Virus record (IMG/VR): IMGVR_UViG_3300032315_001401
Coordinates: 1-64,000 of that record
Source: a virus
Direction: 5' to 3' (one strand)
DNA: 64,000 nt
The notes below the pieces were generated by a model. The model saw nothing but the letters and a program-made list of their open reading frames with translations, did no database searches and was not told where the DNA came from. The position numbers and the translations under genes are program-made. Shown here piece after piece: positions 12,101 through 35,231 of this stretch (its first letter is position 1; the number at the start of each line of letters is the position of its first letter).

Positions 12101-12105
12101 TTTTA

Positions 12106-12894: not shown

Positions 12895-12896
12895 GA

Positions 12897-16102: not shown

Positions 16103-16103
16103 T

Positions 16104-17641: not shown

Positions 17642-17642
17642 T

Positions 17643-19054: not shown

Positions 19055-19055
19055 A

Positions 19056-20537: not shown

Positions 20538-20542
20538 AACTA

Positions 20543-21541: not shown

Positions 21542-22281
21542 AATGATACTCCCAAATCAATTGATTTTGTTTTAATTTTATTGTTTTTTAGATGATCTCT
21601 AAGTAACAGTTCAACACACCAAATATTTTCTTTAGACATTACTTGGTGATAAACTGGTTCAAAATGATAATAAAGTGTGCTCCAAACATTCATGATTTTG
21701 GGAGATCCCATTCCAAACCAATCACTAATCATATCCAATGGTTGATTTAGATTTTGATGATATAAGACATTTGAATCAAACTCAAAATTTGAAAAGTCCA
21801 ATCTAATCGAAGGACTTACATCATATCTCATAGTAATGACTACATCATACTTTACATTATTCTCAATAGAATAATTTTCTCTGAGAAAATTAACCATCAT
21901 CTTACTGTAACATTGACTGTGACATCTGTCAACAGTATATTTCTCAAAAAACTCTATTCCATTTGGATCATTTAAACCATAATCAAAACACCTTTTAATA
22001 TTTTCCTCTGTAACTTTTATATTAGAATTTTCCCAATGTTTTGGTTTTTCAAAACAAAAACCTTTTGGATTATAAACATCTAAAAGTTTTTTATCAATAT
22101 CAATTTCAGAAGATCTTCCCCAATGACCAGGTGTTCTTTTACCAAAATCTAAATTAGCAGAATCATACCAACAATGTAAAAAAACATCTACATCGTTGCC
22201 ATTTATGGTAGTCTCTTTAACTCTTTGAGAAGTTTGTATAGCATTCCTTGGTTGACCAGACAAACATAATGCGATTTTCAT
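21538..22281 (-). CDS. LSGQPR-type putative glycosyltransferase, 247 aa
   Basis: MKIALCLSGQPRNAIQTSQR at the N-terminus and DVVITMRYDVSPSIRLDF in the middle. Paralogous layout to the 16104 gene. Such LSGQPR proteins occur in glycan clusters of algae-infecting viruses and cyanobacteria, function not established to my knowledge. Confidence 0.55.
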   Translation of the reverse strand: MKIALCLSGQPRNAIQTSQRVKETTINGNDVDVFLHCWYDSANLDFGKRTPGHWGRSSEIDIDKKLLDVYNPKGFCFEKPKHWENSNIKVTEENIKRCFDYGLNDPNGIEFFEKYTVDRCHSQCYSKMMVNFLRENYSIENNVKYDVVITMRYDVSPSIRLDFSNFEFDSNVLYHQNLNQPLDMISDWFGMGSPKIMNVWSTLYYHFEPVYHQVMSKENIWCVELLLRDHLKNNKIKTKSIDLGVSF

Positions 22282-23267
22282 AAAGAAATTTCCTTCACAA
22301 CTTTTTTAATTAAAGATTCAATGCTTGTATTAGGTTCCCACCCTAAAAGTTCTTTCGCTTTTTCATAGGATCCTTTAGAATATTTATTGGTTTCTTTAGC
22401 AACAATTTTTTTATCTAAAGGATATTCTCCAGTAAATAATTCCGGATAGTTGTCCCAAAGTTTTGAAGATTCTCTATAAACTGCTTTAATATCCGTATTA
22501 AAAACTTCGCAAATACAATTTGCAATTTGATTTACGGAAACAAGAGTCCCGGTACAAACATTAAAAGTATCATCGGGTTTTTTATCCAAACATATATCAA
22601 TCAATTTAACCACATCATCAACATGAATATAATCTCTCTTTTGTTCGCCATCAGAATGCAATATTGGAGAATTGTTGTTTAGAATTTCTCTGACAATGTA
22701 ATTAATAAGTGGTGGATGTTTTCTATGAATATCTTGTCTTGGACCAAATACATTAAAAAATCTAAGAGTACTAATAGGCATATTATAATTAATTCGATAT
22801 GATTCGCATACCTCTTCTGCCATCTTCTTAGATAAAGAGTACCATAATCTTGGATTTATTTCTAAATCTTCAGTAAATACTTTCTCTTTATTATTTTCAT
22901 AAACAGCACTGGTGCTGGCAAAAATTACATGCGGAACTTTCCACTTTCTTGCACACTCAAGAATGTTCATCGTTCCGGAGACATTCACATTGATTGTATC
23001 GACAGCGTTAGTTTCACAATCAGGAAGAGCAGTGATAGCGGCAAGATGAATAATACAGTCATATTCATCCTTAAGTAGTTCTACAATATTTAAATTGGAA
23101 ATACTTAGATTATAAAACTTTCCAAAAGTTTCACCATTAATCGTTAGATTTTCTAGATACCCATTTCTTAAATTATCAATAAGTGTAAGCGTATGACCTT
23201 TTTTAAAGAGATAATATCCTAAAGTAGATCCTATTCCACCAGCAGCACCAGTTAAAAGTATTTTCAA
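22278..23267 (-). CDS. NAD-dependent epimerase/dehydratase, 329 aa
   Basis: LTGAAGGIGSTLGYYLFKKG, FASTSAVYENN, catalytic YSLSK and KRDYIHVDDVVKL: an extended SDR acting on a nucleotide sugar. Second epimerase of the cluster, diverged from the 13841 gene. Product sugar not deducible. Confidence 0.83.
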   Translation of the reverse strand: MKILLTGAAGGIGSTLGYYLFKKGHTLTLIDNLRNGYLENLTINGETFGKFYNLSISNLNIVELLKDEYDCIIHLAAITALPDCETNAVDTINVNVSGTMNILECARKWKVPHVIFASTSAVYENNKEKVFTEDLEINPRLWYSLSKKMAEEVCESYRINYNMPISTLRFFNVFGPRQDIHRKHPPLINYIVREILNNNSPILHSDGEQKRDYIHVDDVVKLIDICLDKKPDDTFNVCTGTLVSVNQIANCICEVFNTDIKAVYRESSKLWDNYPELFTGEYPLDKKIVAKETNKYSKGSYEKAKELLGWEPNTSIESLIKKVVKEISL

Positions 23268-24322
23268 TGTAAAAACTCCTTTAAATTGTCACTATTTCTT
23301 GGCAAGTTAATCGCTTCACATGACGGATATGGATTACTTTTTGCAAAATCATTGATAATAACTCGCTTACAATGTGGCAAACCCATAATCAATTCATCAT
23401 ATAAAATCTTCTTGTCTTCTAATTCAGAAACTGTTATGTCTCTCATATTTTTAGGTCTACTTGTTGTCAAAACTATTTTGACTTTACCTGCTTGATGCAA
23501 TGAGTTTAAATAGTCAATATTATCCTGCAAAGCATCTGCATTACCAATATATGGTGGGAAATGAACTGAAGAGTTTGTGACTAGAGTACCATCAATATCA
23601 ACGAACAAACATTTGTATTGGGACTTGTATTTGTTCCAAGCATTAAGTGTTCCCCAATCTTTAAAATTTGATGTTTTAGTTCCATAAAATGTTGAACCAG
23701 ATAACATCATCTCAAAAATAATATAACTAATATAACACTCACCTTCCATATCTTGCAGTTTTTCATAAGTAGCACAAAACTCTCTTGTATCTGTAAATCC
23801 ATAACCACCGCTGGAAAAGGTAGAACTAACAACATGTTTTTCAACAATATTAGTTATCATTTGATTAATATCAAGCTCTATGTAACTTTTTGTACGAGCA
23901 TTAATATCATCCATATCATTTAAATCAAAATATGCAACTTGATTTTTTTCATTATTTAATTCACATTCATAATATCCATCAGAATCTTTGATGAATATAA
24001 ACCCCGACAATTGACTATTCTTCAAAAAATTATAAACGGTTTCAGATTGTGATTTAGTTTGTTCTGGTAACAAAACTATTTTTGACTTTTCATATAATCC
24101 AAGATTATTAAGTTCTGAAGTAAAACCTTTCATGAACTCATATTTATCTTCATGTTCTTGCAAACAAATAAAATAAATATGATCAAAAAAATTTAAGTTA
24201 AGACCAAGAATAGATTCTGTTACCATAAACCTATTAGTCATTGGATGTGTAAGCATCCACTTGGGTCTCATATTTGGGAAACGGCTAGACCGTCCCGCCA
24301 TAGGAATTATTAAAGTTCGCAT
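23264..24322 (-). CDS. Fusion: sugar/alcohol-phosphate nucleotidyltransferase plus HAD phosphatase, 352 aa
   Basis: N-terminal half: IIPMAGRSSRFPNMRPKWML is the G-x-S-S-R-F-x5-P-K-x-L nucleotide-binding loop of MobA-like/LicC-like nucleotidyltransferases. C-terminal half (from about 237): LFVDIDGTLVTNS (nucleophile DxDGT), VLTTSRPKNMR (motif II) and VIINDFAK (motif IV) form a HAD phosphatase. The gene overlaps by 38 nt a small-molecule kinase gene; together they could make and activate a phospho-headgroup for glycan decoration. That pathway is inference. Confidence 0.75.
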   Translation of the reverse strand: MRTLIIPMAGRSSRFPNMRPKWMLTHPMTNRFMVTESILGLNLNFFDHIYFICLQEHEDKYEFMKGFTSELNNLGLYEKSKIVLLPEQTKSQSETVYNFLKNSQLSGFIFIKDSDGYYECELNNEKNQVAYFDLNDMDDINARTKSYIELDINQMITNIVEKHVVSSTFSSGGYGFTDTREFCATYEKLQDMEGECYISYIIFEMMLSGSTFYGTKTSNFKDWGTLNAWNKYKSQYKCLFVDIDGTLVTNSSVHFPPYIGNADALQDNIDYLNSLHQAGKVKIVLTTSRPKNMRDITVSELEDKKILYDELIMGLPHCKRVIINDFAKSNPYPSCEAINLPRNSDNLKEFLH

Positions 24323-25112
24323 ATAACTTTGATGATTTTACCATTATATCAAGTATACTTCTTTGATGGGAAAAAGTCAAGTAGGGTTCAATTCTAAGAC
24401 TATTCAGTGCTTCCAAAATATCAAACTCATCAGTATCAATAAACTTAGAGTATCTACAATAAAGTTGATTCCAGATATGTTTATAAATTTGCTCTATCCT
24501 ATTTGATTGTATGTTTTGAGTTTTGATGCTCCAGAGATGATAAAGATCTTGTTTCAATTTAACAAGATCGGAAATAAAACTATCAACATAACAATCAAGA
24601 AAATCAATAAAAAATAATCTATTTTTATGAAAAATAATATTATTAAAGGTTAAATCTCCATGACAAAAAGTTTTAGGAACATAGACATTTTGCTTTTTAA
24701 TTAAAAGTTCAATGTATTCCAAATAATTTTCATAGCAAGTTTTATTTTTTAAAACTTTAATTTTTTCATCAATATTTGATTGAACATTAATCAATCGATA
24801 ATTTAAAATAAGAGAATCAAAATATTCAAATAAAGTATCAATAACAAATTCTATGTCCTTAATAGAAGATGTGGAAAAAAATTCCACAAAAGATTTTCCA
24901 GGAATGTATTCCATATCAAAATACTCATCCCGAATATTATGAACTTTGGGGGTATCTACATTCTTTAAAATTCTACGAGAAAATAAAACTTGTTTATTAA
25001 CCTGCAAAGAAAGTCTTGAGTTATAACTAATTGATGAAGAATACTTTCTAAGTACTCTACTATCAATTAATTCAAGTTTACATCCAGATAACCCTACAGA
25101 AAAATCTAACAT
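24285..25112 (-). CDS. APH/choline-kinase-like phosphotransferase, 275 aa
   Basis: FCHGDLTFNNIIF (Brenner motif H-x-D-x4-N) and LFFIDFLDCYVDSFISDLVK (metal-binding D) place it in the aminoglycoside/choline kinase fold. Upstream of the nucleotidyltransferase-HAD fusion, so a LicA/LicC-like couple is possible. Substrate unknown. Confidence 0.72.
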   Translation of the reverse strand: MLDFSVGLSGCKLELIDSRVLRKYSSSISYNSRLSLQVNKQVLFSRRILKNVDTPKVHNIRDEYFDMEYIPGKSFVEFFSTSSIKDIEFVIDTLFEYFDSLILNYRLINVQSNIDEKIKVLKNKTCYENYLEYIELLIKKQNVYVPKTFCHGDLTFNNIIFHKNRLFFIDFLDCYVDSFISDLVKLKQDLYHLWSIKTQNIQSNRIEQIYKHIWNQLYCRYSKFIDTDEFDILEALNSLRIEPYLTFSHQRSILDIMVKSSKLYANFNNSYGGTV

Positions 25113-25894
25113 TAAAAATATTGCTGTATTTTAAAAAGATTATGATCTATACCATGAGTAAATAACAATCTATAAAATCTCCCAAAATTATCAGCAAAAT
25201 GATTACCAACATCTTGGATGGTTTTCTTTTCATCATTATCTAAAAGATAATCCCAAGATTTTGAACTTGGATGAAATCTTTCTAACAAATACTTATAAAC
25301 ATCTATTGGATGTCTTTGTATTAAGTTTTTACTTACAGAAAAGCAATGTGCATGGTCGAAGGCATAAACTTTTCCAGGAAGATTGCTCCTATCTGGAAAA
25401 ATATGGTTGTACCAATCTTCAAATACTTCCCATCTCTTTGCTCTGCCATCAAAATTAAATGGATTGCCAGTTACATATGGACTATCTACATTAATATAAG
25501 TATCTCCCAATATTTCTTTTAAATGCAAATTGTCATTATTGTACCAAATATATGATCGCAATCCAGATCCAACTTCGCAATAGTCGTAATTTGCACAATT
25601 ATCAAGTAAGTAATAAAAATTTATACCTTGCTCTTTCCAATTAATTTTTGTAAATAGTGTATGGTCAGGAAGAATAGAATAATTATCTACAATATAACTT
25701 AAAAAAGCATAATCAGATTTCCCATAATTTGGTATTAAAATTTGATTTTCAACTATTTTATTCTCACCTATTTTTAGATCATCAGATTTTTTATAAACGA
25801 CTAAATTATAATTTTTTTGATGGACCAGATTATCCCAATCCAATTTATAAAAATCATTATAATAAGAAGTTATTACATTTATATTATTTTTCAT
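25112..25894 (-). CDS. DUF3431-like protein, 260 aa
   Basis: VVYKKSDDLK, ILIPNYGKSDYAFLSYIVDN and SILPDHTLFTKINWKE match the general plan of DUF3431 proteins (N-x-G-x-x-x-x-x-x-L-x-x-I-x-x-x-Y), found in capsule and cell-surface clusters. Molecular function unknown. ATG 5 nt from the broken fucose synthase stop. Confidence 0.55.
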   Translation of the reverse strand: MKNNINVITSYYNDFYKLDWDNLVHQKNYNLVVYKKSDDLKIGENKIVENQILIPNYGKSDYAFLSYIVDNYSILPDHTLFTKINWKEQGINFYYLLDNCANYDYCEVGSGLRSYIWYNNDNLHLKEILGDTYINVDSPYVTGNPFNFDGRAKRWEVFEDWYNHIFPDRSNLPGKVYAFDHAHCFSVSKNLIQRHPIDVYKYLLERFHPSSKSWDYLLDNDEKKTIQDVGNHFADNFGRFYRLLFTHGIDHNLFKIQQYF

Positions 25895-25898
25895 TAGA

Positions 25899-26069
25899 TT
25901 AGAAATTATCTAAATTATATTTTTCAACATCACTCTGATCTCTCAAATCAAAATGAGTTCTTGGGGCAGAATAGATATTTTTATATCCTTTAGCAATTAA
26001 ATTTCTTACAATCGCAGATCCTACAAGACCTCGATTACCCGCAACAAATATTTTACTATCACTGTCCAT
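25899..26069 (-). pseudogene. N-terminal remnant of GDP-L-fucose synthase, 56 codons
   Basis: [20 protein letters not shown] begins a typical Fcl/WcaG Rossmann fold (G-x-x-G-L-V-G-S-A-I), followed by THFDLRDQSDVEKY; then a stop after LDNF. Full enzymes are about 310 residues, so only the first sixth remains and the catalytic Y-x-x-x-K is lost. Directly downstream of GDP-mannose dehydratase (overlap 11 nt), the usual gmd-fcl order. Whether the short peptide is made is unknown. Confidence 0.8.
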
Positions 26070-27063
26070 AAATGCACATGTCCTCAATCAATTGGTCAAA
26101 TGTAATTTTAGGTTCCCATCCTAATTGTGTTTTTGCCTTCGTGGCATCCCCTAATAAGGTTTCTACTTCAGCGGGTCGAAAATATTTAGGGTCAACCATT
26201 ACACGCACTAAACCAGTATTCTTATCAACTCCAACTTCTTCTCCAGCGTCAGTAAACTGCCATTCAATATTCATTCCAAAGTAAGGTGCTGCTTTTTCAA
26301 CAAACTCACGCACAGAGTATTGCTCTCCAGTAGCAATCACGTAATCTTCTGGAGTTTCCTGCTGCAACATCAACCACATTGCTTCAGCGTAATCTTTTGC
26401 GTGACCCCAGTCTCTTTTGGCATTTAGATTGCCAAGTTTGAGGACATTCTGAAGTCCAACTGACATTCTTGAGAGACCTCTTACAATTTTTCTGGTAACA
26501 AAAGTTTCACCACGACGGGGAGATTCATGATTAAAAAGAATTCCTGTGCAGGCATACATTCCATATGCTTCACGATAGTTTTTAGTAATCCAGTAGGCAT
26601 AGAGTTTTGCTACCCCATAAGGAGAACGGGGATAAAAGGGCGTAGTCTCCTTTTGTGGTGTCTCCTGAACTAATCCGTAGAGTTCGCTTGTAGATGCTTG
26701 ATAAATTCTTACCTTATCTTCCATACCCAAGAGACGAACTGCCTCAAGAATACGGAGAGTTCCAACAGCATCAACATCAGCAGTGTATTCAGGCATCTCA
26801 AAGGATACCTTTACATGACTTTGAGCACCTAGATTATAAATCTCATCTGGTTGAACTTGCTGAATCACTCTTACAAGGTTTGTAGCGTCAGTAAGATCCC
26901 CATAATGAAGATGAAGTTGGGAATAGATATGATCAATTCTATGAGTATTAATGAGTGAGGCACGACGAATAATTCCATGCACTTCATATCCTTTTTCTAA
27001 AAGAAGTTCGGCAAGATATGATCCATCTTGACCAGTAATTCCAGTAATTAAAGCAACTTTCAT
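26059..27063 (-). CDS. gmd: GDP-mannose 4,6-dehydratase
   Basis: 334 residues, full length. [39 protein letters not shown], catalytic [20 protein letters not shown] and [18 protein letters not shown] are hallmark GMD motifs. It converts GDP-mannose to GDP-4-keto-6-deoxymannose, precursor of GDP-fucose, GDP-rhamnose or GDP-perosamine. First gene of the long glycan operon, after a terminator-promoter composite at 27084-27118. Confidence 0.95.
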
Positions 27064-28072: not shown

Positions 28073-28144
28073 TCCAGAAGGTTGGGATCGAACCAACGTC
28101 TTCACCGCCCCAAACGGTGCCGTCTACCGCTGACTTACTCCTGG
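28073..28144 (-). tRNA. tRNA-Pro(TGG), copy 1
   Basis: CCAGGAG/CTTCTGG acceptor with one G-T pair, anticodon arm CACCG-TTTGGGG-CGGTG, T-arm GTTGG-TTCGATC-CCAAC. A second copy differing at a few positions lies at 34265. Confidence 0.88.
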
Positions 28145-28152
28145 TTACACCG

Positions 28153-28269
28153 TTATTTAGTTCGGTGTATAAGCATTATACCCATAATCGGGGCAACTGT
28201 CAACCCTGCCCCACAAATACCTAACCATATAGGACTTGCTGCCAGTGTCTCTACAATATGAAAAATCAT
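28153..28269 (-). CDS. Membrane peptide, 38 aa
   Basis: MIFHIVETLAASPIWLGICG, then a hydrophobic AGLTVAPIMGIMLI and basic HRTK. The ATG overlaps the TGA of the upstream gene (ATGA). One helix, function unknown. Confidence 0.6.
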   Translation of the reverse strand: MIFHIVETLAASPIWLGICGAGLTVAPIMGIMLIHRTK

Positions 28270-28451
28270 ATTCCTCTCCAATTCTTATATTCATAATGGA
28301 AGTATTGATCAACAGTATCGTCTAATGGGGCATCCACTCCCCATTCAGACCATTCTCTACAAAACTGTTTGATGTGATTATCATTCAAGACATGTCTGCC
28401 ATAAGACCTTACAAAGCAAGTCATAGCAAAACTATATCTTTGCTTATCCAT
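28266..28451 (-). CDS. Hypothetical protein, 61 aa
   Basis: Starts MDKQRYSFAMTCFVRSYGRH and is rich in Trp, Tyr and Asp at the end (DQYFHYEYKNWRGI). Overlaps both neighbours. Function unknown. Confidence 0.6.
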   Translation of the reverse strand: MDKQRYSFAMTCFVRSYGRHVLNDNHIKQFCREWSEWGVDAPLDDTVDQYFHYEYKNWRGI

Positions 28452-28530
28452 ATGCGTGTGTAAGACTCCACTGAATGAAGAATGAAATTAGTCCAAAAAG
28501 AACACAGGCAACTATAAGTGTGTTAGTCAT
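28444..28530 (-). CDS. Membrane peptide, 28 aa
   Basis: MTNTLIVACVLFGLISFFIQ and WSLTHAYG: a single transmembrane helix. GGAG sits 10 nt before the ATG. Overlaps the downstream start by 8 nt and the upstream stop by 8 nt. Confidence 0.6.
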   Translation of the reverse strand: MTNTLIVACVLFGLISFFIQWSLTHAYG

Positions 28531-28675
28531 TCTTATCTCCAAGATACTTTGCGAGAGGATCTTTTTTGGTTTTGACTATTTCACACGATCTTCGGTAAAA
28601 CGTATTATCAGTATTACCGGACTTTTCAAAGGTTGCTTTAATTTTCACCCAATTCTGGTAAGTGTGGTCATCCAT
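28523..28675 (-). CDS. Conserved small cyanophage-type protein, 50 aa
   Basis: MDDHTYQNWVKIKATFEKSG then SCEIVKTKKDPLAKYLGDKN. Soluble, basic; seems conserved in cyanophages, function unknown. First gene of a four-gene overlapping set. Confidence 0.65.
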   Translation of the reverse strand: MDDHTYQNWVKIKATFEKSGNTDNTFYRRSCEIVKTKKDPLAKYLGDKND

Positions 28676-28702
28676 TGGGAATTTAGTTTGATACTACTAG
28701 TT

Positions 28703-28730
28703 ATGCTAGTAAGTATTTTGGGAATGTCAA
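28703..28730 (-). promoter_or_regulatory. Possible sigma70 promoter
   Basis: TTGACA at 28725-28730 is perfect; the best -10 is TAGCAT with a 16-bp spacer. Weaker than the other promoters here. Confidence 0.4.
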
Positions 28731-28771
28731 GTTTGTGTGGATTTGATGATAGTGTTTAAGAAAATATTAAA

Positions 28772-28854
28772 CGGAGAGAACAGGAATCGAACCTGCGAAG
28801 CTTTTACACCCAGCCGCTTTCAAGGCGGTGTCCTCGACCAACCGGACTCTCTCC
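28772..28854 (-). tRNA. tRNA-Ser(TGA)
   Basis: Class II tRNA with a long variable arm; GGAGAGA/TCTCTCC acceptor, discriminator G, anticodon loop CTTGAAA, T-arm with TTCGATT. Preceded by TTGACA-N17-TATATT (28864-28892). Confidence 0.92.
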
Positions 28855-28863
28855 ATGTGTTAT

Positions 28864-28892
28864 AATATACTATATGTATTTGATTTTGTCAA
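28864..28892 (-). promoter_or_regulatory. Promoter of tRNA-Ser, TTGACA-N17-TATATT
   Basis: -35 at 28887-28892, -10 at 28864-28869. Its -10 region overlaps a plus-strand TATAAT, so divergent transcription toward the 28893 gene is possible. Confidence 0.6.
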
Positions 28893-29501
28893 GTGTTTAT
28901 CAAACCATCACAAAAAAGAATTGAATTTGAAAGACTTCTACACCAACTTGGATATAAAGACCGACTACCAGTCTATCCAAAAGAAAATAAGAGATATCAA
29001 CAAGTCAATTTCAAATGCTCTGATGGAGCAATGGCAATTTATACCTTTATTATACTCTATCAAACTAAAAAAAGTTACTTGTATTTAGAGTTTAAAGACC
29101 ATTATAAGTCACCAAATCTGAAAGAAAAGATTCAATTCCTTGCAGAAAAGATTCACTTTCACGAAAAAACCAGAGTTGCTGAAGTTGGTTGGGAAGTCAA
29201 ATATACAAAGCAACCGGATGAGTTTTCATTAGAAGAAAGAAAACAAATCTTCTATCACTTTATGAAATACACATATCAAAATCTTGAAGAAGGTATGGTA
29301 AAACTTTCACCAAGACCCGGTGATATTTTAGCAGCAAAACCTCACGGTCCAAAAATCAATGAAGGATTTACAGAATCTTCACTGGTGATTGGGAAGCATC
29401 AGAGGTCTTTGGTTGCCCGCAAATTTGGATTTGGTGAATTGCAAGAAGATGGATTTCAATACGCTCGTTATGATGAAAACTGCGTATTGAAACCTATCTG
29501 A
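28893..29501 (+). CDS. Hypothetical protein, 202 aa, plus strand, GTG start
   Basis: Begins MFIKPSQKRIEFERLLHQLG at a GTG; no ATG is in frame nearby. Contains SPRPGDILAAKPHGPKINEG and ends ENCVLKPI. Soluble. One of only four plus-strand genes in the window and convergent with the 29494 gene (8-nt overlap). Similar proteins seem to exist in cyanophages, function unknown. Confidence 0.65.
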   Translation: MFIKPSQKRIEFERLLHQLGYKDRLPVYPKENKRYQQVNFKCSDGAMAIYTFIILYQTKKSYLYLEFKDHYKSPNLKEKIQFLAEKIHFHEKTRVAEVGWEVKYTKQPDEFSLEERKQIFYHFMKYTYQNLEEGMVKLSPRPGDILAAKPHGPKINEGFTESSLVIGKHQRSLVARKFGFGELQEDGFQYARYDENCVLKPI

Positions 29502-29751
29502 CTTCAAAGTCAAGTCGCCTTACTTTACGTTGCCTTCTTTCCTCTTGCCACATAATATCAGCATTTGACAAAACATTATTTTTTTGTTTTGCTTGTGGAG
29601 AATTAATCATCACCACTTGGTCTAAATCAAGTGCTGAAATGACTCCATTACGAATGGTTGCCATATTCGAACAACCACAAGATACTGTTTTTCCAGAGAT
29701 GCCTTCTAACTCCTTACCACAGGAGCGGCATCTGATTTTAATGTTTTCCAT
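29494..29751 (-). CDS. Small zinc-ribbon-like protein, 85 aa
   Basis: MENIKIRCRSCGKELEGISG and VSCGCSNMATIRNG give two Cys pairs (C-x2-C, C-x-C) like a short zinc ribbon. Seems conserved in cyanophages. Co-transcribed with the Dps gene, 6 nt downstream of it. Confidence 0.65.
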   Translation of the reverse strand: MENIKIRCRSCGKELEGISGKTVSCGCSNMATIRNGVISALDLDQVVMINSPQAKQKNNVLSNADIMWQEERRQRKVRRLDFEVR

Positions 29752-29757
29752 AGTTAA

Positions 29758-30195
29758 TTATTTTTCAGTAAATGAACGAAGCATCCAAACGAACTTACCG
29801 TGTGCTTCATTTAAATCATCAAGAAGATTGACTGTGCCTCTTGACTTTTGCTCATCCGCTTCTACAGCAGCATCTGAAAGCATTGTGATTATTTTTTGAT
29901 GACCTTCCATCAAATCACGAATCATTTCCATTTCGGAAATATTAGATTTTGCTTCACCGATACCAGAAACTTCTACTACTCTGGTCAGAGAACTAACTGG
30001 TTTAATTTCAAGAAATCTCATGTGCTCTGCAATACGATCAACTTCTTCCTGAATTGCAAGATACTGCTCACCAAATAAATCGTGAATCTGCTTAAAGTCA
30101 GGTCCAACAATATGCCAGTGATAGACCCAAGTCTTTTGGAACAATACAAAAAGACTTGCTTGAGTATCAGAAAGTAATTTATATAGTTTTTCCAT
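29758..30195 (-). CDS. Dps-family ferritin (DNA-binding protein from starved cells), 145 aa
   Basis: HWHIVGPDFKQIHDLFGEQY followed by EEVDRIAEHMRFL contains the intersubunit ferroxidase residues of Dps (His, His, Asp, Glu in the H-W-x-V-x-G ... H ... D-x-I-A-E pattern). Dps forms 12-mers that oxidise Fe(II) with H2O2 and can bind DNA. It follows tRNA-Val and a TATAAATA late promoter, so it is probably made late and could protect phage DNA or store iron. Dps is a host-type gene, rare in phages. Confidence 0.88.
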   Translation of the reverse strand: MEKLYKLLSDTQASLFVLFQKTWVYHWHIVGPDFKQIHDLFGEQYLAIQEEVDRIAEHMRFLEIKPVSSLTRVVEVSGIGEAKSNISEMEMIRDLMEGHQKIITMLSDAAVEADEQKSRGTVNLLDDLNEAHGKFVWMLRSFTEK

Positions 30196-30212
30196 TATAC
30201 CTGTTTTTTAGG

Positions 30213-30220
30213 TATTTATA
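30213..30220 (-). promoter_or_regulatory. Late promoter TATAAATA of dps
   Basis: Exact motif 18 nt before the ATG at 30195 and 2 nt after the 3' end of tRNA-Val. Confidence 0.7.
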
Positions 30221-30222
30221 AT

Positions 30223-30293
30223 GGGCGATACTGGATTCGAACCAGTGACCATCTCCGTGTAAAGGAGGCACTCTACCGCTGAGTTAATCGCCC
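30223..30293 (-). tRNA. tRNA-Val(TAC)
   Basis: GGGCGAT/ATCGCCC acceptor, anticodon loop TTTACAC, T-arm ACTGG-TTCGAAT-CCAGT. Confidence 0.92.
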
Positions 30294-30300
30294 AAAAAAG

Positions 30301-30465
30301 TCAAGATTGACTTAACATATATTCTACAGTGTTTGCTATATCACTCATAGCATCACGAAGATTTTCTCTTTGACCTGACTCTTGTTTAATGATTGGTCGA
30401 TGGTCGTCAGTTAAGGTCCACCGCCACTGATTCATTTCTTTACAATACCAAAGATTAATTTTCAT
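30301..30465 (-). CDS. Conserved small cyanophage-type protein, 54 aa
   Basis: MKINLWYCKEMNQWRWTLTD and DAMSDIANTVEYMLSQS at the end. Overlaps its upstream neighbour by 11 nt. Trp-rich N-terminus; function unknown. Confidence 0.65.
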   Translation of the reverse strand: MKINLWYCKEMNQWRWTLTDDHRPIIKQESGQRENLRDAMSDIANTVEYMLSQS

Positions 30466-30613
30466 TCTTAAAATGCTCTAGTTCAATCCAACGAAGAAGA
30501 GTATTAAACGCTGTAATAGATGCTTGAGTACAATTATCTTCTTTTAATTTACGAATATAATACTCAAGTGCTTCGATGACCATTTCACGGTCCATTTGAG
30601 AAATAAGAGACAT
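30455..30613 (-). CDS. Small helical protein, 52 aa
   Basis: MSLISQMDREMVIEALEYYI onward, with a strong AGGAGG ribosome-binding site 5 nt before the ATG. Early gene behind the composite promoter at 30635. Function unknown. Confidence 0.68.
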   Translation of the reverse strand: MSLISQMDREMVIEALEYYIRKLKEDNCTQASITAFNTLLRWIELEHFKNEN

Positions 30614-30634
30614 AACCCTCCTGATTCATTTCCT

Positions 30635-30669
30635 ATTATACTGAAAAGGGGAGTCGTTGTCAACTCCCC
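30635..30669 (-). promoter_or_regulatory. Terminator-embedded perfect promoter
   Basis: The stem GGGGAGT/ACTCCCC (30648-30669) plus TTTT terminates the porin transcript. The loop carries TTGACA (30658-30663); 17 bp later is TATAAT (30635-30640). All 12 consensus bases match, so one short element ends one unit and starts the next. Confidence 0.82.
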
Positions 30670-30692
30670 AATTCACACTATGTATTCAAATA

Positions 30693-31577
30693 TCAGAACT
30701 TGAAACCAAGACCAGTAGTGAAGACTGGCGAATAAGTTCCATTGGTAGCACCGTAACTGTTAGCAGCATTGGTGGTAGGGAACTTCAGGTCAGCAAAACC
30801 AACGAGTGAATTGCTGATGCGACCTTCGACTCCAAGAGCAAGAACAAATTGACCACGATTGCCAACTGCCGACTGATAGTTGGAAGTAGTATTGTTCACG
30901 AAGGGAATCTGATAACCAACACCAGCATACACATTGGCACGACTCACACCACTCTTGGCACGGGAAACGCTCCAGTCATAAGAAACCAGAGCACCACCAC
31001 CCGCGCCGATTTGACCAGCAGGACTACCGACAAGGTTGGCATAGGGACGAACTGAAACAGCATTCAGATTGGTGAAGTTCTTCACAGCATAACGTGCTTG
31101 AATCGTGGCACCGGAGACAGTTTTTTGAGCACTGAATCCATTACCAGCAACACCTTGCTGATCGAGAAGCACACCAACACCCAGATAATTACCAACACCT
31201 TGTGCCTTTTGAGCAGCAGCGACTTCAAGTGCAGTCACACGAGTATTGGTAGCAGCAATCTCCTTTGCAAACTCTGCACGAAGGGCAGCAGCAAGAGCAG
31301 CATCAGCGGCACTTTGATACTCACTAATGCGGTCGAGGCAAGCATTAGTCAGAGCAGCAAGTTCAGCACGGGTCGCAGGTTGACCAGGACGGAAGGTGCC
31401 ATTGGGATAACCAGCAACACAACCGTAACGCTCTACCAGATTAGTGATTGCTTGATAAGACCACTGGGTAGGTTGAACATCACGCAGTTGAGAAGCACTG
31501 GTGACTTGTGCCATAGCAGGAGCAGCAATAGAAGTTGCAGCAACTACGCCAGCAGCAATAATATTTTGAAAAGTCAT
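30693..31577 (-). CDS. SLH-domain outer-membrane porin of cyanobacterial (Som) type, 294 aa
   Basis: N-terminal signal peptide MTFQNIIAAGVVAATSIAAP cleaved after AMA. Next an SLH domain (LRDVQPTQWSYQAITNLVER, GYPNGTFRPGQPATRAELAA), then a short coiled coil (about 90-125), then a Gly-rich beta-barrel ending GLGFKF with the terminal Phe needed for outer-membrane assembly. Cyanobacterial Som/iron-type porins have this order but are about 500 residues, so the barrel here is short (probably 8-10 strands). Expected in the host outer membrane, anchored to peptidoglycan polymer. Preceded by CTAAATA and tRNA-Gly. Confidence 0.88.
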   Translation of the reverse strand: MTFQNIIAAGVVAATSIAAPAMAQVTSASQLRDVQPTQWSYQAITNLVERYGCVAGYPNGTFRPGQPATRAELAALTNACLDRISEYQSAADAALAAALRAEFAKEIAATNTRVTALEVAAAQKAQGVGNYLGVGVLLDQQGVAGNGFSAQKTVSGATIQARYAVKNFTNLNAVSVRPYANLVGSPAGQIGAGGGALVSYDWSVSRAKSGVSRANVYAGVGYQIPFVNNTTSNYQSAVGNRGQFVLALGVEGRISNSLVGFADLKFPTTNAANSYGATNGTYSPVFTTGLGFKF

Positions 31578-31606
31578 ATTGTATTAAGATTTACAACTAC
31601 GATGGT

Positions 31607-31613
31607 TATTTAG
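31607..31613 (-). promoter_or_regulatory. Possible late promoter CTAAATA of the porin gene
   Basis: CTAAATA 30 nt before the ATG at 31577; a TATAAATT variant lies 12 nt further upstream. Confidence 0.45.
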
Positions 31614-31635
31614 ACGCCCCGAATTTATAGGGCAA

Positions 31636-31706
31636 GCGGAGTATCGGATTCGAACCGACGACATCTAACTTGGAAGGATAGCGTTCTACCACTGAACTAA
31701 CTCCGC
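31636..31706 (-). tRNA. tRNA-Gly(TCC)
   Basis: GCGGAGT/ACTCCGC acceptor, anticodon loop CTTCCAA, T-loop TTCGAAT. Confidence 0.93.
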
Positions 31707-31756
31707 AATGTGGGAGATTTGACTCTCCCGGCACTTGCCTTCACACGGACATATGA

Positions 31757-31785
31757 AGTATATGACATAATGAGTATTATGTCAA
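31757..31785 (-). promoter_or_regulatory. Promoter TTGACA-N17-TATACT upstream of tRNA-Gly
   Basis: -35 at 31780-31785, -10 at 31757-31762. Between it and the tRNA lies a GGGAGA/TCTCCC hairpin. Confidence 0.7.
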
Positions 31786-31856
31786 GCCCCCGACCGGATT
31801 TGAACCAGCGACCAATGGTTTACAAAACCATTGCTCTACCACTGAGCTACAAGGGC
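31786..31856 (-). tRNA. tRNA-Thr(TGT)
   Basis: GCCCTTG/CGGGGGC acceptor with G-T pairs, anticodon loop TTTGTAA, T-loop TTCAAAT. Confidence 0.9.
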
Positions 31857-31936
31857 AACACGGGGGTGATCAAGTCCCCGACCTAACAAAGTTAGGATTT
31901 AGAAAGGAAGACCCGGACATTTCCAGTTCTTCCAAC
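31857..31936 (-). other. Hairpin-rich spacer between tRNA-Thr and tRNA-Asn
   Basis: On the minus strand GGAAGA/TCTTCC, CCTAAC-TTT-GTTAGG and GGGG/CCCC helices can form. No gene seen; may be a degenerate tRNA or processing signal. Confidence 0.35.
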
Positions 31937-32008
31937 TGGGGCGGCAGGGATCGAACCTGCGACCTAGATGTTAACAGCATCCCGCTACTACCGCTGAGCT
32001 ACACCCCA
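31937..32008 (-). tRNA. tRNA-Asn(GTT)
   Basis: TGGGGTG/CGCCCCA acceptor with one G-T pair, discriminator G, anticodon loop CTGTTAA, T-loop TTCGATC. Confidence 0.92.
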
Positions 32009-32019
32009 ATATTTGTTTT

Positions 32020-32027
32020 TATAAATA
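32020..32027 (+). promoter_or_regulatory. Late promoter TATAAATA, plus strand
   Basis: Exact motif 25 nt before the plus-strand HNH gene and 11 nt from tRNA-Asn. Confidence 0.7.
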
Positions 32028-32051
32028 AGATTAGCACCTAATGTTAATCTT

Positions 32052-32396
32052 ATGAAATGTGTTTGGCATCTATGTTTAGAAGAAGCAGTGCTCTACAATG
32101 GTAGAGGTAAGTTTTGTTCTAAGCAATGTAAGAACAAATACTATGTAGACCAGAAAAGAAAGAAACTCAAGCAAGACAGTATAGCATATAAAGGTGGTGC
32201 TTGTCAATGCTGTGGTTACAATCGCTCACATTGGGCTTTAGAGTTTCACCATTTGGACCCCAAAGAAAAAGATTTTCATCTGTCTAAAGGTGGTCATACT
32301 AGAAGTTGGGAAAAAGTCAAAGAAGAATTAAACAAATGCATTCTAGTATGCTCTAACTGCCATTCTGAAATTCATCACGGAATTCGCAATGTATAA
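32052..32396 (+). CDS. HNH endonuclease inside the tRNA array, 114 aa, plus strand
   Basis: Two Cys pairs: CVWHLCLEEAVLYNGRGKFC at the N-terminus and CQCCGYNRSHWALEFHHLDP with the catalytic HH, then CILVCSNCHSEIHHG closing the HNH zinc site. Opposite in direction to the tRNAs on both sides and with its own TATAAATA promoter, so it behaves as an inserted unit. tRNA clusters of T4-like phages commonly carry such homing genes. Confidence 0.85.
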   Translation: MKCVWHLCLEEAVLYNGRGKFCSKQCKNKYYVDQKRKKLKQDSIAYKGGACQCCGYNRSHWALEFHHLDPKEKDFHLSKGGHTRSWEKVKEELNKCILVCSNCHSEIHHGIRNV

Positions 32397-32441
32397 GGAG
32401 AAGGAGAGCTCTTGGACGAATCCGCAGGATCACTTCCCCAG

Positions 32442-32512
32442 TGGAGAATAGCAGAATCGAACTGCTAATAAGTGCTTGCAAAGCACCCGTTATACCGTTT
32501 AACTAATTCCCC
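32442..32512 (-). tRNA. tRNA-Ala(TGC), copy 1
   Basis: GGGGAAT/ATTCTCC acceptor with one G-T pair, anticodon loop TTTGCAA, T-arm AGCAG-TTCGATT-CTGCT. Second copy at 52734 differs only in the T-stem. Confidence 0.92.
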
Positions 32513-32520
32513 AAATTGGA

Positions 32521-32591
32521 GGCGGGGGGTGGAGTTGAACCACCTACCTGAAGCTTATGAGACTTCTGTGCAACCATTACACTTCCCCACG
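32521..32591 (-). tRNA. tRNA with CAT anticodon (Met or Ile2), copy 1
   Basis: Anticodon arm GAAGT-CTCATAA-GCTTC, T-arm GGTGG-TTCAACT-CCACC. Acceptor CGTGGGG/CCCCGCC with a C1-C72 mismatch resembling an initiator feature, but without the GGG-CCC initiator anticodon stem. Amino-acid identity cannot be settled by eye. Confidence 0.75.
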
Positions 32592-32652
32592 ATGAAGGGT
32601 TAAGTGTGGTATGCCTTAAGGACATATCAGGGACTTAACCTCTGTCTTTTAT

Positions 32653-32681
32653 ATATTAGGGTATTTTCAAAAATTTGTCAA
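32653..32681 (-). promoter_or_regulatory. Promoter TTGACA-N17-TAATAT
   Basis: -35 at 32676-32681, -10 at 32653-32658; would read tRNA-Met/Ile and tRNA-Ala. Confidence 0.6.
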
Positions 32682-32685
32682 CCCC

Positions 32686-33156
32686 CTACTGAAACAAATA
32701 GTCCTTCCATTCAAAAACTTTTGTTTTCTGAATATCAAGTATCACTCTACTAATTGGTGCTTGTGGAATACTCTTTAAGACCATATTAGTCTCTTTAAGA
32801 AGTTTATTTCCTTTTTTAAGATTACAAGATGTGCAACAAGCAACTAAATTATCCCAAGTATCTTGACCACCTTTTGATCGGGGAATTATGTGGTCAATTG
32901 TAAGGTCATTTTTAGACCCACAATACTGACATTCATAATCATCCCGTTTATAGATGAGAGCTCTCGTTGGGTAATCTGATCTTCCATAGGAAAATGGAAT
33001 TTTCACATAATTCACCAAACGAATAATTCTCTTGGAGATAAGTTTTGCTTTCTGTTTAAAAAGTAAAACAATTGCACGTTTCCAATTAGTGAAGTGTAGT
33101 GGCTCGTAAGAACTATTCAAAACTAGTATAGTTGAGTATGGTTCTACTAATTCCAT
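32686..33156 (-). CDS. HNH endonuclease of cyanobacterial type, 156 aa
   Basis: Starts MELVEPYSTILVLNSSYEPL; LNSSYEPLHFTNWKRAIVLL is the N-terminal block of common cyanobacterial HNH proteins, then CQYCGSKNDLTIDHIIPRSK and CCTSCNLKKGNKLL form the HNH site. Located between tRNA genes. The longer frame upstream crosses tRNA-Arg and is rejected as the start. Confidence 0.85.
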   Translation of the reverse strand: MELVEPYSTILVLNSSYEPLHFTNWKRAIVLLFKQKAKLISKRIIRLVNYVKIPFSYGRSDYPTRALIYKRDDYECQYCGSKNDLTIDHIIPRSKGGQDTWDNLVACCTSCNLKKGNKLLKETNMVLKSIPQAPISRVILDIQKTKVFEWKDYLFQ

Positions 33157-33179
33157 TTTCCTATCACACCTCTCGTTGC

Positions 33180-33186
33180 TATTTAG
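33180..33186 (-). promoter_or_regulatory. Possible late promoter CTAAATA of the HNH gene
   Basis: 24 nt before the ATG at 33156 and 11 nt after the tRNA-Arg 3' end. Confidence 0.4.
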
Positions 33187-33197
33187 ATTTAAATGGC

Positions 33198-33270
33198 ACC
33201 CTCTGCAAGATTCGAACTTGCGACTTCTTGGTTCGTAGCCAAGCACTCTGGTCCACTGAGTTAAGAGGGC
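33198..33270 (-). tRNA. tRNA-Arg(ACG)
   Basis: GCCCTCT/AGAGGGT acceptor, anticodon arm CTTGG-CTACGAA-CCAAG, T-loop TTCGAAT. Confidence 0.92.
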
Positions 33271-33274
33271 AGGC

Positions 33275-33345
33275 GAAGGATGAGGGACTTGAACCCCCAC
33301 TAACGGTTTTGGAGACCGTCGTGCTACCAATTACACCAATCCAAC
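33275..33345 (-). tRNA. tRNA-Trp(CCA)
   Basis: Anticodon arm ACGGT-CTCCAAA-ACCGT, T-arm GGGGG-TTCAAGT-CCCTC. The acceptor GTTGGAT/ATCCTTC has two mismatches, so maturation may be poor. Confidence 0.82.
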
Positions 33346-33349
33346 AAGG

Positions 33350-33423
33350 TGTCCGTGAGAGGACTCGAACCTCCAACAAATAGATCCTTAGTCTATTGCC
33401 TCTTCCAATTGGGCTACACGGAC
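33350..33423 (-). tRNA. tRNA with AAG anticodon (nominally Leu), short variable arm
   Basis: GTCCGTG/CACGGAC acceptor, anticodon arm ATAGA-CTAAGGA-TCTAT, 5-nt variable loop, T-loop TTCGAGT, discriminator A. Bacterial tRNA-Leu normally has a long variable arm and no A34, so identity is doubtful. Confidence 0.7.
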
Positions 33424-33426
33424 GAG

Positions 33427-33498
33427 TTCCAGAACTAGGATTCGAACCTAGATAAACTCCTTCAAAGGGAGGTGTCCTGCCAGTTAGACGATTCTGGA
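33427..33498 (-). tRNA. tRNA-Gln(TTG)
   Basis: TCCAGAA/TTCTGGA acceptor, anticodon loop CTTTGAA, T-loop TTCGAAT. Confidence 0.92.
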
Positions 33499-33503
33499 TT
33501 AGG

Positions 33504-33577
33504 AGTTCAGGGTGGGATTCGAACCCACGATAAGAAGTTTTGCAGACTTCCGCATTCGACCACTCTGCCACCTGAAC
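33504..33577 (-). tRNA. tRNA-Cys(GCA)
   Basis: GTTCAGG/CCTGAAC acceptor, anticodon loop CTGCAAA, discriminator T. Confidence 0.92.
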
Positions 33578-33579
33578 GG

Positions 33580-33651
33580 GGTGTCGTATGAGAATTGAAC
33601 TCATCTCCTCTGTTTCACAAACAGATGCCTTGACCACTAGGCTAACGACAC
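33580..33651 (-). tRNA. tRNA-His(GTG)
   Basis: GTGTCGT/ACGACAC acceptor, anticodon loop TTGTGAA, discriminator C as expected for bacterial tRNA-His. Confidence 0.92.
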
Positions 33652-33652
33652 A

Positions 33653-33724
33653 AGGCAGTAGGTAGAATTGAACTACCGACATAGAGGGTATGAATCTCTT
33701 GTTCTACCACTGAACTACACTGCC
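33653..33724 (-). tRNA. tRNA with CAT anticodon (Met or Ile2), copy 2
   Basis: GGCAGTG/TACTGCC acceptor, anticodon loop TTCATAC, T-loop TTCAATT. Two CAT tRNAs in one array suggest one is the lysidine-modified Ile tRNA. Confidence 0.8.
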
Positions 33725-33726
33725 AA

Positions 33727-33811
33727 CGGAGAGTAGAGGATTCGAACCTCTGGTGCTGTTACACACAAGACCTTTCCAAGATCTCACCATAAACCACTCG
33801 GACAACTCTCC
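33727..33811 (-). tRNA. tRNA-Ser(GGA)
   Basis: Class II, GGAGAGT/ACTCTCC acceptor, discriminator G, anticodon loop CTTGGAAAG region with GGA, long variable arm. Confidence 0.9.
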
Positions 33812-33815
33812 AAGG

Positions 33816-33898
33816 CGGAAGATGTTGGATTCGAACCAACGGAGGTTTTATCCTCACGGTTTAGCAAACCGCTGCATTAACCGCTCTGCCAATCTTCC
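33816..33898 (-). tRNA. tRNA-Ser(GCT)
   Basis: Class II, GGAAGAT/ATCTTCC acceptor, discriminator G, anticodon loop TTTGCTAAA region with GCT, long variable arm. Confidence 0.9.
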
Positions 33899-33903
33899 AA
33901 GTA

Positions 33904-33992
33904 GGGAGAGGGTGGAATCGAACCACCATTGCCAATGGACGGAATCGAACCGTCTCTGATACCGTCGTATCCACCATCCAAGGTGCTCTCCC
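33904..33992 (-). tRNA. tRNA-like chimera with two T-arm-like hairpins; possibly tRNA-Ser(CGA)
   Basis: 89 nt: GGGAGAG/CTCTCCC acceptor closes CACC-TTGGAT-GGTG, GATAC-GACG-GTATC, GACGG-TTCGATT-CCGTC, the palindrome CCATTGCCAATGG, and GGTGG-TTCGATT-CCACC. If the first TTCGATT arm serves as anticodon arm the anticodon is CGA (Ser) and a 14-nt hairpin is inserted between D-arm and anticodon arm; otherwise it is a fusion of two tRNA 3' halves. Confidence 0.6.
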
Positions 33993-33995
33993 AAG

Positions 33996-34067
33996 TGGAA
34001 CCGACAAGATTTGAACTTGTGACCGCTCGGTTATCAGCCGAGTGCTCTACCACTGAGCTACGGTTCC
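33996..34067 (-). tRNA. tRNA-Ile(GAT)
   Basis: GGAACCG/CGGTTCC acceptor, anticodon arm CTCGG-CTGATAA-CCGAG, T-loop TTCAAAT. Confidence 0.92.
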
Positions 34068-34187
34068 ATCAAGGTAGGGGTCGATATCAACAACCTACCA
34101 GTTTCAGTTTTCGGACTGAAAAACCTATCACTAACCAACCGAAGTTTCATAACGGAGGAAGTGAATCTCCGTGACCATAAGGTCAAG
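34068..34187 (-). other. Spacer with a degenerate tRNA-like fold
   Basis: 120 nt, no gene. Minus strand shows a T-arm-like GGTTG-TTGATAT-CGACC, a TTCAG/CTGAA stem and CGGAG/CTCCG and GACC/GGTC hairpins. The acceptor is imperfect, so this looks like a decayed tRNA plus hairpins. Confidence 0.35.
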
Positions 34188-34261
34188 AGGGAACAATCGG
34201 ATTTGAACCGATAACACCTTGATCTTCAATCAAGTGCTCTACCAATTGGAGCTATGTTCCC
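34188..34261 (-). tRNA. tRNA-Phe(GAA)
   Basis: GGGAACA/TGTTCCC acceptor, anticodon arm CTTGA-TTGAAGA-TCAAG, T-loop TTCAAAT. Confidence 0.92.
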
Positions 34262-34264
34262 AAG

Positions 34265-34336
34265 TCCAGAAGGTTGGATTTGAACCAACGTCCTCACCGC
34301 CCCAAACGGTGCCGTCTACCGCTGACTTACTCCTGG
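34265..34336 (-). tRNA. tRNA-Pro(TGG), copy 2
   Basis: Same acceptor, D-arm and anticodon arm as the copy at 28073; differs in the variable loop and T-loop (TTCAAAT instead of TTCGATC). Confidence 0.9.
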
Positions 34337-34340
34337 ATGG

Positions 34341-34412
34341 TAGTCTCGAAGGGATTTGAACCCTCGTTTTTGCTGTGAAAGAGCAACGTCCTAACCATTA
34401 GACGACGAGACC
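34341..34412 (-). tRNA. tRNA-Glu(TTC)
   Basis: GGTCTCG/CGAGACT acceptor, anticodon arm TTGCT-CTTTCAC-AGCAA, T-loop TTCAAAT. Confidence 0.92.
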
Positions 34413-34460
34413 TTGATGCTACAACCACCAAGGAGGGACACTCCATCGGCAGCGTAGCAA
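34413..34460 (-). other. Hairpin spacer between tRNA-Glu and tRNA-Asp
   Basis: 48 nt able to form TGCTAC/GTAGCA enclosing GGAG/CTCC. No gene seen. Confidence 0.3.
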
Positions 34461-34533
34461 CGACCCTAACGGGATTCGAACCCGTGATACCACCGTGACA
34501 GGGTAGCGTGATAGACCACTTCACTATAGGGTC
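34461..34533 (-). tRNA. tRNA-Asp(GTC)
   Basis: GACCCTA/TAGGGTC acceptor, anticodon loop CTGTCAC, T-loop TTCGAAT. Confidence 0.92.
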
Positions 34534-34550
34534 AAGAGCACAATCCACTA

Positions 34551-34566
34551 CCAATGGTATCATTGG
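34551..34566 (-). repeat. Perfect 16-nt hairpin between tRNA-Asp and tRNA-Tyr
   Basis: CCAATG-GTAT-CATTGG; the CCAATG/CATTGG arms also occur in the palindrome inside the 33904 tRNA-like element. Confidence 0.5.
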
Positions 34567-34579
34567 GCAGATCATGCAG

Positions 34580-34670
34580 TGGGAGAGGAGGGAATTGAAC
34601 CCCCGATGGTTCCGATGTAACGGTTTTACAGACCGCAGCCACACATATTGCCAACAGTAGCCACTCTCCC
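34580..34670 (-). tRNA. tRNA-Tyr(GTA) with an expanded D-arm
   Basis: GGGAGAG/CTCTCCC acceptor, anticodon arm GCGGT-CTGTAAA-ACCGT, long variable arm as in bacterial Tyr, T-loop TTCAATT. The stretch between acceptor and anticodon stem is about 27 nt instead of about 20 and contains TTGGCAAT, also found in the 33904 element. Confidence 0.82.
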
Positions 34671-34673
34671 AGA

Positions 34674-34742
34674 TAGGTTCAATTGAGTTACGGCACTGAG
34701 AAGCATTAGATCTCCCCCAAGAGTCCGTTTCAAGAGAACCTA
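34674..34742 (-). ncRNA. Candidate small stable RNA between tRNA-Tyr and tRNA-Lys
   Basis: 69 nt closed by a perfect 7-bp helix TAGGTTC/GAACCTA, with inner ACGG/CCGT, CTC/GAG and GAGA/TCTC stems but no T-arm or anticodon arm. Its tRNA-like size and closing stem without tRNA interior recall the stable RNAs C and D of the T4 tRNA cluster. Confidence 0.45.
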
Positions 34743-34743
34743 A

Positions 34744-34815
34744 TGGGACATCTCGGATTCGAACCGAGGACTAACCGGTTAAAAGCCGGATACTCTACCG
34801 CTGAGTTAATGTCCC
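34744..34815 (-). tRNA. tRNA-Lys(TTT)
   Basis: GGGACAT/ATGTCCC acceptor, anticodon loop CTTTTAA, T-loop TTCGAAT. Confidence 0.93.
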
Positions 34816-34948
34816 ACATAATATGGATAAATATTCGGTTGTCTAGGTTCGGTGTGGTCTCTCTCGACCACTTGATTAGAATACCACCGTTTGGTCTCTG
34901 GGGGGAGATTGGTGGACACTTAGGAAACTGTCACAAGCAACAAAAAAG
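34816..34948 (-). other. Structured leader of the tRNA array
   Basis: No gene. Minus strand carries the hairpin GTGGTC-GAGAGA-GACCAC and a CCACC/GGTGG helix. Lies between the terminator at 34949-34976 and tRNA-Lys, where the array transcript should begin; no clear promoter was found. Confidence 0.35.
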
Positions 34949-34976
34949 GGGAGGAAACTTTTGGTTTCTCTCCCCT
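34949..34976 (-). terminator. Strong terminator, usable on both strands
   Basis: GGGGAG-x-GAAAC / GTTTC-CTCCCC stem with one bulge; minus strand continues TTTTTT. Ends the 33-residue gene. Confidence 0.8.
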
Positions 34977-35002
34977 GTCTTTTTGCTTTTATGGATTACA
35001 TC

Positions 35003-35104
35003 TTACATAAGACTTTCCATATCCGCAAACAGGGGAGCACCCTCAATATGCCAATAGCGGCAATCGAGAATACTAAACTGTTTTGTGGGCATTGGGAAAG
35101 TCAT
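35003..35104 (-). CDS. Autonomous 33-residue protein
   Basis: MTFPMPTKQFSILDCRYWHI followed by EGAPLFADMESLM. It has its own promoter (TTGACT-N17-TATAAA that also reads TATAAATA, 35126-35156) and its own terminator, isolated within the tRNA array. Function unknown. Confidence 0.6.
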   Translation of the reverse strand: MTFPMPTKQFSILDCRYWHIEGAPLFADMESLM

Positions 35105-35125
35105 TGTTTTCGACCTAAGTGTTTT

Positions 35126-35156
35126 TATTTATAAGACTTTTTTTTCAAAAAGTCAA
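35126..35156 (-). promoter_or_regulatory. Dual promoter: TTGACT-N17-TATAAA overlapping TATAAATA, with hairpin
   Basis: TATAAATA at 35126-35133 coincides with the -10; -35 TTGACT at 35151-35156. The spacer is a hairpin GACTTTTT-GAAA-AAAAAGTC (35135-35154). Confidence 0.6.
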
Positions 35157-35157
35157 G

Positions 35158-35231
35158 CGTCTCAGGTTGGATTCGAACCAACGGCTAACCGCTTAGAAGG
35201 CGGATACTCTTGTCCACTGAGTTACTGAGAC
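35158..35231 (-). tRNA. tRNA-Arg(TCT)
   Basis: GTCTCAG/CTGAGAC acceptor, anticodon arm ending CTTCTAA loop, T-loop TTCGAAT. Confidence 0.92.

Follow-up and report, generated by a model that had tools for sequence, protein, structure and literature searches.

Control of the host envelope by cyanophages has been little explored next to their photosynthesis genes. The DNA considered here is a stretch of 64,000 nucleotides (the window; positions 1 to 64,000 of IMG/VR record IMGVR_UViG_3300032315_001401) from a virus of picocyanobacteria, which, as in many cyanophages, carries a psbA gene for the photosystem II D1 protein (7688-8842). It also carries a gene for a secreted protein with an SLH domain and a predicted outer-membrane beta-barrel. 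What would a phage do with such a protein? The initial annotation described it as a miniature Som-type cyanobacterial porin, considered outer-membrane porins non-standard among phage genes, and offered superinfection blocking or altered nutrient or iron uptake as possible roles.

Architecture of the protein and origins of its parts

The ORF is complete, begins with ATG and encodes 294 amino acids (Table 1). Its Sec signal peptide, already described as complete in the initial annotation, can be read directly in the sequence (MTFQNIIAAGVVAATSIAAPAMA followed by Q), and P20 and A23 are conserved in the family alignment. The single SLH domain reported earlier is likewise confirmed by Pfam (E 1.9e-11); the alignment shows an invariant Cys53 inside it and an invariant Cys80 just C-terminal of it. 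The N-terminal part also matches the solved SLH domain of OmpM1 (8bz2), both in structure (VIA-align, Z 9.7) and in sequence (E 1.6e-8).

Table 1. Positions of the SLH-barrel gene, its parts and its neighbours in the window
Feature	Positions	Strand	Basis
SLH-stalk-barrel ORF, 294 aa	30693..31577	minus	signal peptide, SLH, AlphaFold2, homologues
Signal peptide, residues 1-23, predicted cleavage between AMA and Q	31509..31577	minus	direct from sequence
SLH domain, residues 32-74	31356..31484	minus	Pfam PF00395, invariant columns, 8bz2 match
Helical stalk, about residues 90-125	31203..31310	minus	AlphaFold2 helix 90-125
Eight-stranded outer-membrane beta-barrel, residues 131-294	30696..31187	minus	AlphaFold2, structural matches, remote homology to PF13505 proteins
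Late-promoter motif CTAAATA, 36 nt upstream of ATG	31607..31613	minus	motif scan
tRNA-Gly, directly upstream of the gene	31635..31706	minus	tRNA search
Two small conserved ORFs (52 and 54 aa), downstream	30301..30613	minus	syntenic in S-SRM01 and many contigs
Dps-like ferritin gene, same locus	29758..30195	minus	family match; own late-type motif TATAAATA at 30213-30220
Conserved 85-aa ORF of the locus	29494..29751	minus	ORF list, synteny
Conserved 202-aa ORF, closes the shared syntenic block	28893..29501	plus	ORF list, synteny

AlphaFold2 was run twice, on the full sequence with 57 phage rows and on the mature sequence with host SLH rows added. Each run predicted a helical stalk followed by eight strands, at residues 131-293 (mean pLDDT 61) in the first and at residues 108-270 of the mature chain (mean pLDDT 69) in the second. 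At these values overall confidence is moderate and side-chain detail is not trusted. In the run with the mature protein, pLDDT was 74-91 in strand-rich blocks and 48-63 in loop-rich ones. The barrel is modelled better than the SLH region. The short barrel ending in Phe that the initial annotation had recognised is thus predicted to be closed and eight-stranded, with GFKF as its last residues, and the earlier "coiled coil" corresponds to the predicted helix of the stalk. The top structural matches by VIA-align are eight-stranded barrels (OmpW, Z 15.2; OmpA, 14.8; NspA, 14.5). Among viral structures, the top match is the homologue from phage S-PM2. Many contigs encode the gene intact, and it is under purifying selection, with a mean pN/pS of 0.17 in the SLH domain (the lowest of four regions), 0.30 in the stalk and 0.21 in the barrel. 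By its signal peptide, SLH domain, stalk and closed, Phe-ending barrel, the product of this real ORF is clearly an outer-membrane protein, a location that we infer from these features.

The relationship to Som porins is confined to one part of the chain. The NCBIfam model por_somb (NF033921) matches residues 25-123 only, of 294, at 101.1 bits against a cutoff of 100. The complete Som-type ORFs that were fetched, like the Som/SLH-OprB porins of cyanobacteria in general, have the SLH domain and stalk in common with the window protein; however, they are mostly 480-650 aa long with a large barrel that has no detectable relation to the small one. A barrel profile built from 29 rows found nothing better than E 0.04 among the barrels of the fetched cyanobacterial Som proteins, and a truncated Som barrel was rejected on this result. 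Across 386 genomes of the cyanobacterial phylum, the profile gave weak but consistent matches (E down to 1.6e-8), most of them to proteins only some 176-181 aa long, and both of those tested match PF13505 (OMP_b-brl), although the window barrel itself has no direct Pfam match. OMP_b-brl proteins, at about 180 aa, share the eight-stranded barrel but lack an SLH domain. In fold class the barrel is like OmpA, OmpW and OmpX, and its closest relatives in cells are the small, stand-alone OMP_b-brl proteins that other cyanobacteria encode.

Because a Som-like N-terminus is followed by a barrel with non-Som matches, the protein is best described, on sequence grounds, as a chimera of two origins in which a Som-type SLH domain and stalk are joined to a different small barrel. 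The label "miniature Som-type porin" accordingly holds for the SLH domain and stalk and fails for the barrel. In 400 genomes from the family of a Cyanobium genome, the profile had one weak match, in an interrupted frame, and neither these family-level genomes nor a barrel scan of genome contigs (a pattern scan, which can miss distant relatives) contained a cellular gene combining SLH domain, stalk and small barrel. A cellular source of the whole chimera was rejected on these searches.

Among annotated phages, the whole protein is found only in S-CREM1 and S-PM2; S-SRM01 matches in the SLH domain only. The S-PM2 homologue (p168, CAF34233) is called a "putative S-layer protein" and that of S-CREM1 (SCREM1_199, UYA57656) an "iron uptake porin". 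Both have the same architecture, belong to the same family and are about 75% identical to the window protein over 90-92% of the length, but their loci and neighbours differ from those in the window. The two annotations appear to name the SLH part only, and the present analysis corrects both as misleading. S-PM2 and S-CREM1 alike have hosts in culture. In IMG/VR, relatives are encoded in 138 stretches and the barrel in 151. The gene family was thus already known from S-PM2 and S-CREM1; its chimeric make-up, its alternation with full-length phage porins in one slot, its promoter pattern and its environmental spread appear to be new as far as the literature found shows. A literature search for SLH or S-layer homology in cyanophages found only one review (PMC2984593), and the S-PM2 infection literature that was found does not mention the SLH-barrel gene. 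A table in PMC3037559 lists a separate "S-layer domain protein" cluster, T4-GC 425, of about 573 bp and present in 6 of 16 cyanomyoviruses.

A genome slot shared with full-length porins

The gene lies inside a tRNA cluster on the minus strand (28073-35231) that holds 26 of the 28 tRNA genes of the window. Two HNH/homing-type endonuclease-like ORFs, named by eye, are found in the same cluster at 32052-32396 (plus) and 32686-33330 (minus), and relatives of them recur near the slot in other contigs.

In S-SRM01, the corresponding position is occupied by a full-length porin (QPX48248, read as 492 aa) with a full barrel of a phage-lineage Som type. It is followed by the two small ORFs, Dps, the 85-aa gene and the opposite-strand 202-aa gene, which is the order in the window. 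The same order recurs in many contigs with the small-barrel (mini) form and in many with the full-length form, and the sequences on the 5' side of the two forms are similar. No record among 25 large ones encodes both forms (13 mini only, 12 full-length only), which is a pattern and not proof of exclusivity, as large records may be fragments. Relatives of the S-SRM01 porin were matched in 400 IMG/VR stretches, the best 80 of which were fetched; full-length phage porins of the Som type are common in that database, and one contig (IMGVR_UViG_3300044631_000905) carries two copies. The view that porins are not standard phage genes was therefore too strong, given the family in S-PM2 and S-CREM1, the full-length porins in the best 80 of 400 viral loci, and the small outer-membrane barrels that structure matches place in many phages.

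In a tree, a branch with support 100/99 sets 31 viral full-length rows apart from the other sequences, and their neighbour is a porin of Synechococcus CS-1330, although their selection by similarity to one phage porin overstates their unity. Host contamination is, on this placement, an unlikely source of the porins on viral contigs. Separately, a contig titled as a Bifidobacterium breve MAG encodes a cyanobacterial SLH porin and is probably mislabelled or from a mixed bin.

The SLH domains of the mini form have a mean identity of 0.66 to phage full-length SLH domains and 0.67 to those of hosts. Mini and full-length SLH sequences form separate groups, in a short and poorly resolved tree, and the two mean identities are nearly the same; these comparisons favour replacement of the whole gene over a recent exchange of barrels between the forms. 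Among the mini genes themselves, similarity of the SLH domain and similarity of the barrel are uncorrelated (r 0.01), which suggests internal recombination.

The initial annotation saw a possible link to iron in the nearby Dps gene. Among testable loci, Dps comes after the mini gene in 19 of 61 and after the full-length gene in 29 of 59. Because it follows both forms, it is part of the shared locus, with no tie to the SLH-barrel gene. The iron link is weak, Dps having a late-type motif of its own, and as a general rule it was rejected, since Dps was not found beside the mini gene in 42 of 61 loci.

The recurrence of a phage slot for SLH-anchored outer-membrane proteins, whether porin or small barrel, speaks for a function in the envelope that is under selection in common viruses, and the exchange of the two forms suggests that cyanophages manage how the host outer membrane is held to the wall. 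It is possible, though we offer it tentatively, that the slot is dedicated to taking over outer-membrane tethering, either with a full-length SLH porin or with a chimera of SLH domain and pore-less small barrel, so that the phage would determine, while it infects, both how the host outer membrane is attached and how permeable it is.

Promoter motifs and timing

The only motif within 160 nt upstream of the window gene is a late-promoter motif of the T4 type. In the phage's own 188 kb, 44 of 80 NATAAATA or CTAAATA sites lie 15-70 nt before ORF starts, compared with 2 of 80 for the reverse complement, and genes for the scaffold, tail tube, baseplate and tail fibre are also preceded by this motif class. 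For S-PM2, NATAAATA has been reported as the late promoter (PMC2984593), and we infer that CTAAATA acts in the same way. Judged by its motif, the window gene is probably expressed late. CTAAATA also precedes an ORF at L248:14685-15638 with a weak match to a galactose-3-O-sulfotransferase family.

Among 46 distinct upstream regions, a late motif occurs in 36, where shuffled sequences gave 2.9, and a sigma-70-type site in 16, where they gave 0.03; both are present in 13. According to the review (PMC2984593), the S-PM2 homologue is one of the first genes to be transcribed, which would not be expected of a purely late role.

A proposed tether and its alternatives

The best reading of the protein, to which we assign a probability of roughly 45%, is a phage-made tether between outer membrane and wall that stabilises the envelope during infection. 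The protein would be secreted and its eight-stranded barrel inserted into the host outer membrane, with the SLH domain and helical stalk extending into the periplasm, where they would bind the cell wall; a Som-type tethering module would thus be carried by a small non-Som barrel. Late expression, in some relatives early expression too, would hold the outer membrane in place and whole during the shut-off of porin synthesis in the host. In diderm Terrabacteria, proteins built of SLH domain, stalk and barrel have been demonstrated to tether the outer membrane, and in cyanobacterial proteins of the OmpM type the SLH domains bind wall polymers that are pyruvylated (PMC10628300). Further, a Synechocystis SLH/OprB mutant hypervesiculates (PMC8707739). 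The closest parallel in design is Veillonella OmpM, both tether and porin, which has the same order of SLH domain, stalk and outer-membrane barrel and whose solved SLH domain matches. However, the barrel of OmpM is larger and serves as a general porin (PMC10628300), whereas both predictions for the window protein gave eight strands and no large porin barrel behind the stalk.

As the SLH module is constant in the slot while the type of barrel varies, tethering fits better than any given pore, and the low pN/pS of the SLH domain together with this constancy points to tethering as the shared function. The same arrangement could also reflect selection for differences in the part exposed at the surface.

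The main alternative is superinfection exclusion or receptor masking, in which the barrel would block, displace or mask the receptor of competitors, or stop progeny from binding debris, and the SLH domain would only fix it in place. Lom, the phage PA-2 Lc porin and T5 Llp are phage-borne outer-membrane proteins, and roles of the exclusion or masking type are known for T5 Llp and PA-2 Lc. Like the window protein, they are phage products of the host outer membrane, but they lack an SLH wall tether, and the Pfam search listed no Ail/Lom family match for the window protein. A function in exclusion would suit the strong sigma-70-type promoters of 16 of the 46 upstream regions, and a protective role has been proposed in print for the S-PM2 protein (PMC2984593). 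The window gene, however, has only its late-type motif, no receptor is known for these phages, and masking needs no SLH anchor. Further, the loops between strands vary, by eye, only slightly more than the strands themselves, which is not the pattern of a surface that selection diversifies. On this evidence exclusion is a somewhat unlikely explanation.

Eight-stranded barrels of the OmpA/OmpW/OmpX class usually lack a wide pore. This argues against the uptake role raised in the initial annotation and implied by the name "iron uptake porin", in which a channel added by the phage would sustain nutrient or iron uptake during infection. The idea draws on the por_somb match just above its cutoff, on the Dps gene in the locus, on the full-length porins that occupy the same slot in other phages, and on the effect of the Synechocystis SLH/OprB protein Slr1908 on iron uptake (PMC8707739). 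The por_somb match, however, covers the SLH domain and stalk only, and Dps is not found beside most testable mini genes. Uptake through this barrel is therefore poorly supported and improbable. We consider it equally doubtful that a late, overproduced barrel destabilises or remodels the outer membrane to time lysis and release: the late-type motif and the putative envelope location would agree with such a role, but an SLH tether should strengthen outer-membrane attachment. A virion protein, such as a fibre or tail component holding the host wall through its SLH domain, would explain a late-type motif common to structural genes and a domain class that binds cell walls, but is very improbable in view of the Sec signal peptide (T4-like virions assemble in the cytoplasm), the position in a tRNA cluster and not in a structural block, the lack of a PHROG match and the 14 virion proteins counted in the S-CREM1 paper (four structural, nine unknown, one orphan), which do not obviously include the porin-annotated ORF.

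Elsewhere in the window, a dense block of minus-strand ORFs spans 9692-27063; the ORF at 26059-27063 matches a nucleotide-sugar epimerase family, and the other ORFs of this block may be surface-sugar genes.
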